DNA from: Bosea vaviloviae
GTDB taxonomy: Bacteria > Pseudomonadota > Alphaproteobacteria > Rhizobiales > Beijerinckiaceae
Assembly (NCBI RefSeq): GCF_001741865.1
Contig: NZ_CP017147.1
Span: 4,765,001 to 4,829,000, forward strand
Reading direction: 5' to 3'
Length of the DNA: 64,000 nucleotides
Position numbers and translations under genes: made by a program
Shown here: positions 22,899-60,314 of the stretch, piece by piece
How the letters are laid out: each line of letters opens with the position of its first letter
Position numbering within the stretch: the stretch's first letter is position 1
Notes under the pieces: model-generated
Told to the model about the DNA's origin: nothing
The model's database searches: none
The model's input: only the letters and a program-made list of their open reading frames with translations

Positions 22899-24092
22899 AT
22901 GAAGCATTGGATTGCGGGCGCGGTTGGCGTCGTGGGACTGATGATGACGGGCATGATCACGACGGGCGCGGCCGAAGCGCAGGAGCTGATCGTCGAAAAG
23001 AAGATCTTCGAACTGCCGAGCTACACCACGCAGGGCGGCCGAACCCTCAAGAACGTCAAGGTCGGCTGGGAGAGCTACGGCACGCTCAACGCCGACAAAT
23101 CGAACGCGATCCTGATCTGCCATTTCTTCTCCGGCAATTCGCACGCCGCCGGCAAATATGCCGCCGCCGACGCCGCGCCCGGCTATTGGGACGCCATCGT
23201 CGGCCCCGGCAAGGCGATCGACACGAACAAATATTTCGTCCTCTCCTCCGACACGCTGGTCAACCTCAACACCGGCGACCCAAAGACCACGACGACCGGC
23301 CCCGCTTCGATCGACCCCGACACCGGCAAGCCCTATGCGCTCGACTTCCCGGTCGTGACCGTCGGCGACTTCGTCAATGTCCAGAAGGCCTTGGTCGAAA
23401 GTCTCGGCATCAAGAAGCTCGCCTTGGTCGCCGGCCCCTCGATGGGCGCCCTCCAGACCTATGAATGGGCGGCGAGCTATCCCGAGATGGTCGCCAAGGC
23501 GATGCCGGTGATCGGCGCGGCCGAGGCCGACGCGCAGCTCATCGCCTGGCTCGACGTTTGGGCTGCGCCCATCCTGGTCGACCAGAACTGGAACAAGGGT
23601 GATTACTACGGCAAGACCCCGCCCAATGCCGGCCTCGCCAAGGCGCTGGCCGTGGTCACGCTCCAGGCCAATCACGGCGACTGGACCAACGGCACCTTCG
23701 GCCGCCGTCCCGCCAAGGAGGGCGACGCTCCAGCCAAGGCGCTCGCCAACAAGTTCCAGGTCCAGAGCATCTTGGACAATGCCGGCGAGGCCCGCGCAAA
23801 AGTCTCGGACGCCAACCATTTCCTCTACCTGGTCAAGGCCAACCAGCTCTATGCCGCCGGCGGCATCTCGCTCGCGGACGCGGCCAGCAAGATCAAGGCG
23901 CCCATGCTGCTGATCAGCCAGCCCAAGGACCTCGTCTTCACCACGGACGCGATCGAGCGCACCGCCGAGACGCTTAGGAAGGGCGGCGTCAACCTCACCC
24001 AGGCCTTCATCCAGGGCACACGCGGCCATCTCGACGGCGTCATCTCGATGAAGCAGGCCGAAGGCGCGATCCGGGCGTTTCTGGAGAAATAG
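22899..24092 (+). CDS. Secreted alpha/beta hydrolase of the homoserine O-acetyltransferase (MetX)-like group
   Basis: A 397-residue protein with a signal peptide (about residues 1-27, ending GAAEAQE). The fold is MetX-like: NVKVGWESYGTLN, an ILICHFFSGNSHAAG oxyanion region, nucleophile S181 in AGPSMGALQ, acid Asp in SQPKDLVF and His in TRGHLDGV. Cytosolic MetX acetylates homoserine. A periplasmic location makes that unlikely here, so it is better viewed as an exported acyltransferase or esterase of unknown substrate. Start ATG 22899 has a strong AAGGGGAGG at 22882-22890, which decides against the longer frame from 22635. Confidence 0.85.
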   Translation: MKHWIAGAVGVVGLMMTGMITTGAAEAQELIVEKKIFELPSYTTQGGRTLKNVKVGWESYGTLNADKSNAILICHFFSGNSHAAGKYAAADAAPGYWDAIVGPGKAIDTNKYFVLSSDTLVNLNTGDPKTTTTGPASIDPDTGKPYALDFPVVTVGDFVNVQKALVESLGIKKLALVAGPSMGALQTYEWAASYPEMVAKAMPVIGAAEADAQLIAWLDVWAAPILVDQNWNKGDYYGKTPPNAGLAKALAVVTLQANHGDWTNGTFGRRPAKEGDAPAKALANKFQVQSILDNAGEARAKVSDANHFLYLVKANQLYAAGGISLADAASKIKAPMLLISQPKDLVFTTDAIERTAETLRKGGVNLTQAFIQGTRGHLDGVISMKQAEGAIRAFLEK

Positions 24093-24124
24093 GCCTCGTC
24101 CCTTTTCGACCAACCGCGCCTGCG

Positions 24125-24346
24125 CCCTTCTCCCCTCGCGGGAGAAGGTGGCGCGCAGCGCCGGATGAGGGGGCGCCGTGCCCTGTCCGGTTAGCGTCGT
24201 GTTCGGCCGGGCGGAGAACTCACAGCGCCCCCTCATCCGTCTCGGCTGCGCCGATCCACCTTCTCCCGCATCAAAGTCGGCTGTTGCCGACTTTGACACT
24301 TTGGGTTGCCCATCTCGGGCAAGCCCGAGATGGGTGGGAGAAGGGA
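24125..24346 (+). repeat. Mosaic palindromic repeat, family A, copy 1 (modules D then R)
   Basis: The element opens CCCTTCTCCCCTCGCGGGAG and contains module D (24152-24255), bounded by GGAGAAGGTGG and CCACCTTCTCC. Module R follows, with two hairpins (AAGTCGG...CCGACTT and CCATCTCGGG...CCCGAGATGG), and the element ends GGGAGAAGG. Related elements lie at 57153, 57456, 60175 and 31053. It occupies nearly all of the gene-free stretch 24093-24418. Confidence 0.9.
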
Positions 24347-24418
24347 AGAGTGCGCCGCTTTCTGAAGCATGCGAGAGCGGCGTTCCCCCGCCCCGCCAGA
24401 GCCACGGGTACGCCTCTA

Positions 24419-24616
24419 TCAGCCAGAACGGCTGTCTTGCTCCCGGCGCCAGGCGATCAGGGACAACAATAGCGGCCCTACGGTTACGCCGAGGATGGCG
24501 CCGCCTGCTGTCCATCCCAGCGCGCCTCCGCCGATCAATTCGTCGCCTACAAACGCCGCGGCGAAGACTCCCACGAGCGCGAGCAAGACCTTGGCAATCC
24601 AACCGCCCTTGGTCAT
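24419..24616 (-). CDS. Small two-helix membrane protein, function unknown
   Basis: A 65-residue frame starting at ATG 24616 with GGAGCT about 6 bases upstream. It has two hydrophobic stretches (about residues 9-25, VLLALVGVFAAAFVGDE, and 31-53, GWTAGGAILGVTVGPLLLSLI) with a glycine-rich turn between them and a charged WRREQDSRSG tail. I do not recognise a family. The helix-turn-helix membrane layout and the ribosome site argue that it is real, but no neighbour helps. The longer in-frame start at 24736 adds a non-hydrophobic leader with no clear ribosome site. Confidence 0.55.
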   Translation of the reverse strand: MTKGGWIAKVLLALVGVFAAAFVGDELIGGGALGWTAGGAILGVTVGPLLLSLIAWRREQDSRSG

Positions 24617-31052: not shown

Positions 31053-31260
31053 CCCTCTCCCGCATCGAAGTCGGGTCTACCCGACTTCGACACTCCAAGT
31101 GCTGAACCCGGGTATACCCGGGTTCAGTGAGAGGGCAGGGTGAGGGGTCGGCCGTTTGACGCTTTGGCCGTGACCTCACCGCTGCTTCGCTGTGGCGATA
31201 TCACGCTACTGGTCCAGGGGCCTACACCTCACCCCTGCCCCTCTCCTTACAGGAGAGGGG
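31053..31260 (+). repeat. Mosaic palindromic repeat, family A, copy 5 (module R before D, divergent)
   Basis: It begins CCCTCTCCCGCATCGAAGTC and has an R-type module: hairpin AAGTCGG/CCGACTT, CACT spacer, then palindrome GAACCCGGGTATACCCGGGTTC truncated here to its key GGGTATACCC centre. A D-like module flanked by GGTGAGG and CCTCACC follows, and the element ends AGGAGAGGGG. Module order is reversed relative to the copy at 24125. It fills most of 31007-31300. Confidence 0.75.
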
Positions 31261-57152: not shown

Positions 57153-57373
57153 CCCTTCTCCCCTCGCGGGAGAAGGTGGATCGGCGCAGCCGAGACGGAT
57201 GAGGGGCGCTGTGAGATCTCCGCCTAGCCGAACACGACGCTAATTGGACAGGGCACGGCGCCCCCTCATCCGGCGCTGCGCGCCACCTTCTCCCGCATCA
57301 AAGTCGGCTGTTGCCGACTTTGACACTTTGAGTTGCCCATCTCGGGCAAGCCCGAGATGGGTGGGAGAAGGGA
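57153..57373 (+). repeat. Mosaic palindromic repeat, family A, copy 2 (module D inverted, then R)
   Basis: The ends match copy 1 at 24125. The inner module D (57180-57282, bounded by GGAGAAGGTGG and CCACCTTCTCC) is the reverse complement of 24152-24255 apart from a few substitutions, while module R on the right is in the same orientation and nearly identical. Confidence 0.9.
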
Positions 57374-57455
57374 AGAAGAGGCGCGTCATTCTCGGGCGGA
57401 GCGAAGCGCAGACCCGAGAATCTCAAGCCGGAAAAGGCGCCGGAGCCTCCGCGTC

Positions 57456-57645
57456 TTCCCTTCTCCCCTCGGGGGAGAAGGTGGCAGCGCGTAGCGCTGA
57501 CGGATGAGGGAAGGATGGCTCACCCGGTCGCAGCGCCCTCATCCGCCCCTGCCGGGGCACCTTCTCCCAGCCATCTCGGGCTTGCCCGAGATGGGCAACC
57601 CCTAAGTATCAAAGTCGGCAACAGCCTACTTTGATGGGGGAGAAG
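57456..57645 (+). repeat. Mosaic palindromic repeat, family A, copy 3 (module R inverted)
   Basis: It begins TTCCCTTCTCCCCTCGGGGG, has a shorter D-like module, then CCATCTCGGGCTTGCCCGAG and ATCAAAGTCGGCAACAGCC, which is the R module of copies 1 and 2 in reverse complement. It ends GGGGGAGAAGG. Confidence 0.88.
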
Positions 57646-60174: not shown

Positions 60175-60314
60175 CCCTTCTCCCGGATGGGAGAAGGGCA
60201 GGGATGAGGGTGTGCCGCTGATTATTGGAGCGCGACTGCGCCGCAGCACCTCCTATTGAGAGGGCACACCCTCATCCGGCGCTCCGCGCCACCTTCTCCC
60301 ATCCGGGAGAAGGA
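60175..60314. repeat. Mosaic palindromic repeat, family A, copy 4 (short)
   Basis: Ends CCCTTCTCCC/GGGAGAAGG with inner arms GATGAGGGTGTGCC and GGGCACACCCTCATC. It carries one D-like module and no R module. It fills most of 60119-60341. Confidence 0.8.

Follow-up and report, generated by a model that had tools for sequence, protein, structure and literature searches.

Background

Mosaic intergenic palindromes have long been known in rhizobia. The RIME and A/B/C palindromes of Sinorhizobium and Rhizobium are intergenic, palindromic and mosaic according to literature that cites Osteras et al. (1995), and they share these properties, and their occurrence in Hyphomicrobiales, with the element called D in this study. 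BIME and REP palindromes are described as insertion targets that are hit at a fixed point, some of them at the symmetry axis, and the cases include ISRm22 and ISRm19 of S. meliloti (PMC1525189). Small hairpin elements, among them tandem double hairpins, are described in the organelle genomes of sponges (PMC2800124), and palindromes within other palindromes in those of Volvox (PMC2670323). MITEs are defined, in the source used here, as non-coding elements of 70-300 bp with terminal inverted repeats of 15-30 bp (PMC3733652).

We analysed a window of 64,000 nucleotides (G000:C1:4765001-4829000) of the 6.7-Mb genome of Bosea vaviloviae, called G000 below. A preliminary description of this window had reported a mosaic repeat family and had attributed its mosaic structure to inversion of short segments, as in a shufflon. 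Our analysis suggests, at a probability of about 0.6, that the main source of the mosaic is instead the docking of a small cassette, R, together with exchange of segments at fixed addresses.

Results

Mosaic repeats in the window

The repeats in the window (Table 1) are mosaics whose modules are found in both orientations and orders, as had been described. The copies at 24125-24346 and 57153-57374 have their ends and R in common (99% identity over 89 bases) and carry D in opposite directions, with 57166-57296 being the reverse complement of D and its arms at 95% identity. The copy at 57456 holds R reversed, at 57568-57637 on the minus strand, again in agreement with the preliminary description. 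The length of D, given there as 104 bases, is 103 at 57153. The body at 57458, which had been taken for D, is a related body, E, with a like layout of h and tip hairpins and a different centre. At 31053 an R-type module does come first (31062-31129, 76.7 bits, E = 1.3e-16), but the body beside it belongs to a different family and is not D-like as had been thought. This element has the arms CCCTCTC/GAGAGGG and not the CTTCTCC/GGAGAAG arms that had been described.

The pattern CTTCTCCC-N2..8-GGGAGAAG occurs 5 times in the window and CTTCTCCC-N65..85-GGGAGAAG 3 times, each against none in 100 shuffles; chance is excluded as the origin of these boundary patterns. Single-strand DNA folds of the two copies give z values of -11.5 and -11.8 against shuffles, a stability that is expected of palindromes and does not discriminate between explanations. 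An Rfam search of 24000-24500 returned 12 matches up to E 5, all under the gathering scores and mostly to microRNA families. A further element at 60177-60312, with two boundary hairpins of another loop type (GGAT/ATCC), is probably a third body family; an element similar to it is present in G032 at the site of G000 2540774.

Table 1. Repeat features of the window, in window positions.
Feature	Position	Strand	Basis or detail
h, empty (loop CTCGC), left end of D	24125..24148	+	read directly; exact pattern match 24127-24147
D interior, type I centre	24152..24255	+	sequence reading
14-bp perfect arms around the D interior at 24152..24255	24138-24151 and 24256-24269		
h at right D end, filled, R replacing the short loop	24260..24343	+	arms CTTCTCCC / GGGAGAAG
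R, double-hairpin cassette, two perfect stems of 11 and 12 bp	24268..24336	+	94.2 bits
R-type cassette (31062-31129) in another hairpin (CCCTCTC / GAGAGGG), then another body family	31053..31136	+	
h, empty (loop CTCGC)	57153..57176	+	pattern match
D interior, type I centre	57180..57282	-	sequence reading
R in hairpin at m1 end of D	57295..57363	+	arms 57287-57294, 57363-57370
h of E-type body	57458..57481	+	pattern match
Body E, h / tip hairpin / stem layout like D, other centre	57482..57560		
R, opposite orientation, in right hairpin of E body	57568..57637	-	arms 57561-57568, 57638-57645

Anatomy of the modules

D is an element of about 158 bp with inverted ends of about 27 bp, each end holding a complete hairpin, h (CTTCTCCC-5 nt-GGGAGAAG). 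Its parts follow in the order h, tip hairpin m1, stem GGATGAGGGGGCGC, centre, complementary stem, tip hairpin m2 and h. In copies with both h empty the inverted-repeat ends, with h included in each, reach up to 27 bp, and the D at 6460406 of G032 has 27-bp perfect inverted ends. The centres of D come in two types, I and II. E has the layout of D, another centre and more varied tip hairpins. The terminal repeats, size and non-coding nature of D are those of a MITE, and the alignments read held no clean empty D site at which a target duplication could be seen. As in mosaic repeats of the RIME or BIME type, intergenic palindromic modules are joined here in varied orders. In four D copies (G000:C1:2349016 and 5843327, G001:C4:436893 and C9:233) one end is cut off by a common sequence with no relation to D (GTATCTTTGATTTGCCAGTCGGTTTTGTACCGGCGAGG), which may be the terminus of an insertion sequence that targets D.

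The loop of h is a polar unit of 5 nt. In the outward reading from the body, GCGAG and GCCAG predominate beside D, and CCGAG beside E. Among 150 short-loop hairpins that adjoin a body on just one side, this reading gives GCGAG in 45, GCCAG in 44 and CCGAG in 22, and it gives CTCGC, CTGGC or CTCGG in none.

R is 69 bp long and consists of an 11-bp stem, a spacer of about 13 nt and a 12-bp stem, both stems being usually perfect among 104 copies. In an alignment of 28 sequences, five of them from other genera, both partners vary in 13 of the 23 pairs, and covariation scores 0.340, compared with 0.120 for shuffles and no more than 0.060 after sliding. The stem cells comprise 608 Watson-Crick pairs, 12 G-T pairs and 23 others, and this scarcity of G-T pairs suggests constraint or correction at the level of DNA. 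R differs from a REPIN, in which inverted copies of one palindrome form one long hairpin, in having two separate stems of different sequence. Its adjacent hairpins, covarying stems and dispersed copies are those of a double-hairpin element, as is the mobility that its presence and absence suggest.

R lies inside hairpin loops and tends to face D

CTTCTCC and GGAGAAG, with at most 1 mismatch, flank 65 of the 67 R copies that have at least 90% identity and 60 nt, compared with 28 of 20,000 random positions. The stretches fetched from four genomes contain 110 R hits and 85 D hits; they were chosen for holding copies, so these counts are not a measure of density.

Hairpin 1 of R faces the body in 18 of 20 cases beside D and in 10 of 23 beside E in the four genomes (Fisher p = 0.0017), with binomial p values of 0.0004 and 0.68, respectively; these tests assume independent copies, which copying would violate. 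The counts are based on a list of 84 bodies that lacks copies with more mismatches, e.g. those at G000 864801 and G032 2219028, whose addition gives one more hairpin-1 and one more hairpin-2 case. In the own genome all nine D-R composites have hairpin 1 toward D, with R at the m1 end in six and at the m2 end in three. Each of these two ends is represented by one of the copies at 24125 and 57153. Where relatives carry the same D and no R, D is unturned; R has accordingly been gained or lost there, and it is the D end holding R that sets how D and R are related.

Filled and empty hairpins at orthologous sites

We compared four partly sampled Bosea genomes, one per species (G000, G001, G008 and G032), by matching the flanks of element groups between genomes and then reading the sequences side by side. 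The presence of R differs in 6 of 13 orthologous D clusters and the orientation of D in 1 of 13; to be counted, a D hit had to cover 85% of D or more, an R pair had to reach 75% identity, and the flanks could lie no more than 1300 bases apart. At G032 4367585 / G001 83188 the two D are alike (96% identity), the right flank is common and R is present in one genome only, the hairpin reading CTTCTCCC-gc-R-t-GGGAGAAG when filled and CTTCTCCC-gcgag-GGGAGAAG when empty. A filled and an empty h with the orientation of D kept are also found at G000 5152765 / G032 1927142, at G001 24708 / G032 6460406 (D 99% identical) and at G008 112843 / G001 534874, where the empty hairpin has decayed. Such a pair occurs at G000 833730 / G001 330111 as well, a site (site 3) that falls outside the 13 D clusters because of the limits given above.

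The site of G000 864801 shows three states with D in constant orientation: G000 carries R at the m2 end, G001 carries it at the m1 end, and G032 lacks it. At this site and at G000 4822180 the presence of R goes together with a changed D centre, and hence D and R may have arrived there jointly. The G008 ortholog of the locus at 57153 has D in like orientation with a type II centre and no R.

Exchange at fixed addresses

The contents of the bodies differ between orthologs as well, in centre type in 3 of 13 D clusters and in tip-hairpin family in 3 of 13. Site 42 holds E with R in G000 and G001 and D without R in G032; the outer arms are common to them, and G000 resembles G032 in an unusual left tip hairpin. 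G000 and G008 agree at site 35 in the right tip hairpin and in a variant of R but differ in the centre, which is that of E in one genome and that of D in the other. They also agree in a left-arm variant at site 40, where G000 has a type I and G008 a type II centre. These patterns fit a process in which inner segments are overwritten with copies of another element and the breakpoints fall in shared stems, for which we infer gene conversion or template switching as the cause.

Orientation is mostly kept between orthologs

The preliminary description had made its reading depend on variation between orthologous loci, and such variation does exist among the four Bosea genomes. The orientation of D is kept in 12 of 13 clusters, or 13 of 15 with looser spacing, and that of R in every pair of 14 of 17 clusters, or 16 of 21 with looser spacing. 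The limits removed two D pairs, one opposite (the locus at 24125, G000 / G032) and one same. The R pairs beyond the spacing limit comprise three opposite ones (G000 1844928 / G032 5369674, G008 71007 / G032 2219143 and G008 70847 / G032 327413, the other partner of G008 70847, at 328802, agreeing in R orientation), the rest being same; R pairs below 75% identity comprise one opposite and one same. In-place inversion is therefore not the common event that it is in a shufflon, and the exceptions include the locus at 24125.

The exception among the 13 D clusters, G000 2237615 / G032 4863229, differs in centre type at 79% identity, and 23 and 54 of 59 other copies are closer; both members have an uncommon m1 loop (6 of 61 copies). 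Such nearest-paralog counts are hard to read because the copies lie near a common consensus, and type and arm variants were added as evidence. Among the clusters with opposite R, G000 864916 / G001 24627 has R at opposite D ends, and those of G000 2816420 and G008 70847 contain an extra R, the closer partner agreeing in direction. At G000 1844928 / G032 5369674 the left arm is common, R is reversed and a further body is present in G032 only. The fifth such cluster is the locus at 24125. Among the clusters with uniform R, the Rs of G000 3720240 / G001 32376 lie in different hairpins.

A stretch of about 1.2 kb adjoins R at G032 5369674, in the loop of a boundary hairpin (L275, G032:C2:5360000-5379900). 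It has the ends GGATTCCTCTGCGAAA / TTTCGCAGAGAAATCC with ATTC on both sides (CTTCTCCCATTC ... ATTCGGGAGAAG) and looks like an insertion sequence.

The locus at 24125

The gene flanking this locus has 94-95% identity in G001, G008 and G032. The arrangement is h - D - h(R) in G000, a reversed R alone between outer arms that match G000 in G008, a damaged h with loop CTCGC in G001, and h(R) - D reversed - h in G032, with the right boundary as in G000. The G032 element follows a second copy of the end of the gene, about 2 kb away. In G032:C2:2218900-2221400 the end of the upstream gene is duplicated about 2 kb apart, with an R module after each copy, the outer one partial.

The D of G032 and that of G000 have 92% identity, with 6 and 1 of 59 other copies closer, and both have the less common TGC m2 loop (12 of 61 D copies). 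Judged by these sequence variants, descent of D with inversion is plausible for G000 and G032, and no other locus offers as good a case for in-place turning of a body, replacement by another copy being a possible alternative. A turn of the whole element would reverse R, yet R has the same direction in G000 and G032, so one inversion is insufficient. The R of G008 adjoins the GC side of the CTCGC loop, and docking in a single h therefore explains its direction. Inversion as proposed in the preliminary description would account in part for the turned D at this locus (G000 versus G032); as a general, shufflon-like cause it is not supported, since orientation is mostly kept.

R-type cassettes in other genera

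R was found by BLAST in 15 of 297 genomes of the host's order, and R-type cassettes were found by a covariance model, scoring at most 20 candidates per genome, in 39 of 249 genomes and 25 of 112 genera of that order, the own genome being included in both searches. We read the arms at 21 loci, one per genome, from the 38 matching genomes other than G000. At 11 of the 21 the inverted arms reach at least the 99th percentile of a control of 2,000 random positions. These arms differ (CCTTCTCCC, ACCTCTCCC, CCCCTCCCC, CCCTCTCCC, a 16-bp arm and others), and CTCCC occurs in all 11; four of the 11 (L348, L350, L352 and L358) are in the model alignment and had been found with an arm-containing query, and without them the count is 7 of 17. 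At the other 10 loci, one of which (L366) was mis-cut, the arms are not above the control.

One of these 10, the R-type double hairpin of G236 (L367:1501-1569), lies in a cobN frame that is open throughout 356 codons. The frame matches CobN in Pfam above the cut-off and in NCBIfam with 292.8 bits, below the whole-protein cut-off because only part of the gene was submitted. By match coordinates the site has 7, 5 and 3 nt in the congeners G318, G208 and G100, compared with 70, 68 and 66 in G236, so that each of the three is shorter by 63, and a reading of their short stretches agrees with this. For G142 the empty site is given by match coordinates only. A second presence/absence comparison, in the genus of G153, yielded no clean empty site. 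The strongest evidence for mobility of R-type cassettes is this precise, in-frame presence and absence in cobN.

The search for a mover enzyme covered Y1 transposases. These have matches in all four Bosea genomes, and a BLAST search that reached about 1.5 kb from five of the Y1 genes (L328-L332) in these genomes detected neither D nor R; the Y1 locus read most closely has repeats other than D or R. Over 249 genomes, 39 have R-type cassettes, 40 have Y1 matches and 8 have both, against 6.3 expected (Fisher p = 0.48), and the R-rich G281, G301, G147, G107, G224 and G186 are outside the 40. Within this search no mover of R was found, and no target duplication of R was seen. At L329 (G000:C1:3105053-3108388), a Y1 (RAYT-like) gene is present three times in tandem, in whole or in part, at positions 791-2148, and AAATTAAGTAAACTGTCCCCGTAATTC-type repeats follow.

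Gene context

In the own genome, 18 of 41 classified sites lie between convergent genes compared with 68 of 289 other gaps (p = 0.008), and 4 of 41 lie between divergent genes compared with 71 of 289 (p = 0.045). The genes were called by a crude heuristic of G+C at the third position, and the comparison gaps come from the same stretches; left out were 6 sites remote from any called gene, 4 that fall within a called frame and 2 that lack a called neighbour.

Discussion

In the explanation that we prefer, these are nested palindromic intergenic repeats built of hairpins, in which a body, D or E, has inverted ends that each hold h, and R would be a separate double-hairpin cassette of about 69 bp that enters the h loop, usually with hairpin 1 on the body side at D and in either direction at E. 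A D with R at one end would then mimic, beside a D with R at the other, an inverted D, and neither need have turned. Centres, tip hairpins and whole bodies are independently swapped at fixed addresses, in this explanation between dispersed copies and with breakpoints within shared stems, and a rare turn of a body in place may occur. We infer that R has been gained more often than lost and moves as a unit, and the exchange of bodies would be ectopic gene conversion or replication template switching that uses hairpin arms as short homology. An empty h may also have arisen by precise loss of R, and inversion is possible at a minority of loci, including the one at 24125.

Gene conversion or template switching might also have moved everything, R included, which would then be a loop variant copied by way of the CTTCTCCC/GGGAGAAG arms. 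Body centres and tip hairpins are swapped with the arms kept, R and the D centre change together at two sites, and the facing bias beside D could stem from extra homology with D-R donors, all of which this explanation accommodates. We nevertheless consider it rather unlikely, since R-type cassettes in other genera occupy hairpins with other arms and bodies and lie also outside hairpins, once in a gene at a site that is empty in congeners, and since R differs at several sites where D is nearly unchanged (0.96 and 0.99 identity). In-place inversion by a site-specific recombinase or by recombination of the inverted arms, which the preliminary description favoured as the main source, is improbable in our judgement. 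It agrees with the presence of both orientations among the copies, with a D turned in 2 of 15 orthologous clusters, including the locus at 24125 with its closely related D, and with R reversed at a common left arm at two loci, where the neighbouring content differs. Against this, 12 of 13 D clusters (13 of 15 with looser spacing) and 14 of 17 R clusters (16 of 21) have a constant orientation, and D is unturned where R has been gained or lost. Inversion cannot change centres, bodies or the presence of R, and no single inversion converts the arrangement of G000 into that of G008 or of G032.

Two other explanations concern the spread and the function of the elements. A REPIN-like or PATE-like spread, with a Y1 transposase (RAYT or IS200-IS605) acting in trans on two hairpins, would agree with two terminal hairpins, with no target duplication being seen and with Y1 matches in 4 of 4 Bosea genomes; given the lack of D or R near the five Y1 genes and of co-occurrence over 249 genomes, we regard it as very improbable. 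The elements could also be functional 3'-end structures, i.e. bidirectional terminators or mRNA ends, kept by selection with the mosaic as a by-product. The excess of own-genome sites between convergent genes and their deficit between divergent genes speak for such a role, but content is gained, lost and replaced at one address, and the stems have few G-T pairs, as DNA palindromes do and unlike RNA helices, so that we give this explanation a small chance.

Beyond docking and exchange in Bosea, we speculate, as a tentative proposal that is less likely to hold than to fail, that R-type cassettes (about 69 bp, two covarying hairpins) are a widespread mobile DNA of bacteria. They would spread without Y1, prefer the loops of CTCCC/GGGAG hairpins and move probably via single-stranded DNA at replication forks, and their docking would combine with exchange of hairpin modules at fixed addresses to build the mosaics of Hyphomicrobiales. 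The orthologous loci display candidate steps in the recombination of modules, namely hairpin loops with and without a cassette, a rule of orientation, and the replacement of a single hairpin or centre with the address unchanged, and these make such recombination testable by comparison of strains. If R moves alone, it would be a very small mobile DNA whose target is set largely by DNA shape. The R-type cassette in the open cobN frame shows that such cassettes can enter genes.

Comparison with known systems

The part of D that consists of h, tip hairpin and stem (within query positions 1-61) matches 106 plasmid records, 80 from Rhizobium and 16 from Shinella, with 83-94% identity among the best 20 of the 106, and the layout is readable in L344-L346. 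The matching rhizobial records carry no repeat annotation. By this shared sequence D appears to be RIME-like, through an h-tip-stem part common to rhizobial intergenic repeats. A match to 80% of the D-R composite is reached by none of the 106 records, and a search of plasmids with R found nothing. The RIME descriptions, as far as these were available, mention neither docking of R nor exchange at orthologous addresses. In the literature within reach, which left out most subscription papers, we found no description of a double-hairpin cassette that docks in bacterial hairpin loops, and no account of how rhizobial mosaic modules recombine.

The inserts in BIME and REP targets are full insertion sequences with a transposase and often with direct repeats in the cases described (PMC1525189), whereas R is a non-coding 69-bp unit with no duplication seen. 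The double-hairpin and nested elements of organelles are unrelated to R in sequence as far as known, and the available parts of their descriptions contain no orientation rule and no filled and empty hairpins at orthologous sites (PMC2670323, PMC2800124). REPINs resemble R as non-coding mobile DNA of similar size with compensatory changes, but a REPIN is described as two inverted REPs that form one long hairpin and are linked to RAYT (PMC3116915), and R has two different adjoining hairpins and no RAYT link. The palindromic elements of Rickettsia belong to another host and are unrelated in sequence as far as known. They are described as small palindromic repeats that lie in frame in genes (PMC3733652), and this they have in common with the R-type cassette in the cobN of G236, the one in-gene case that we looked at.
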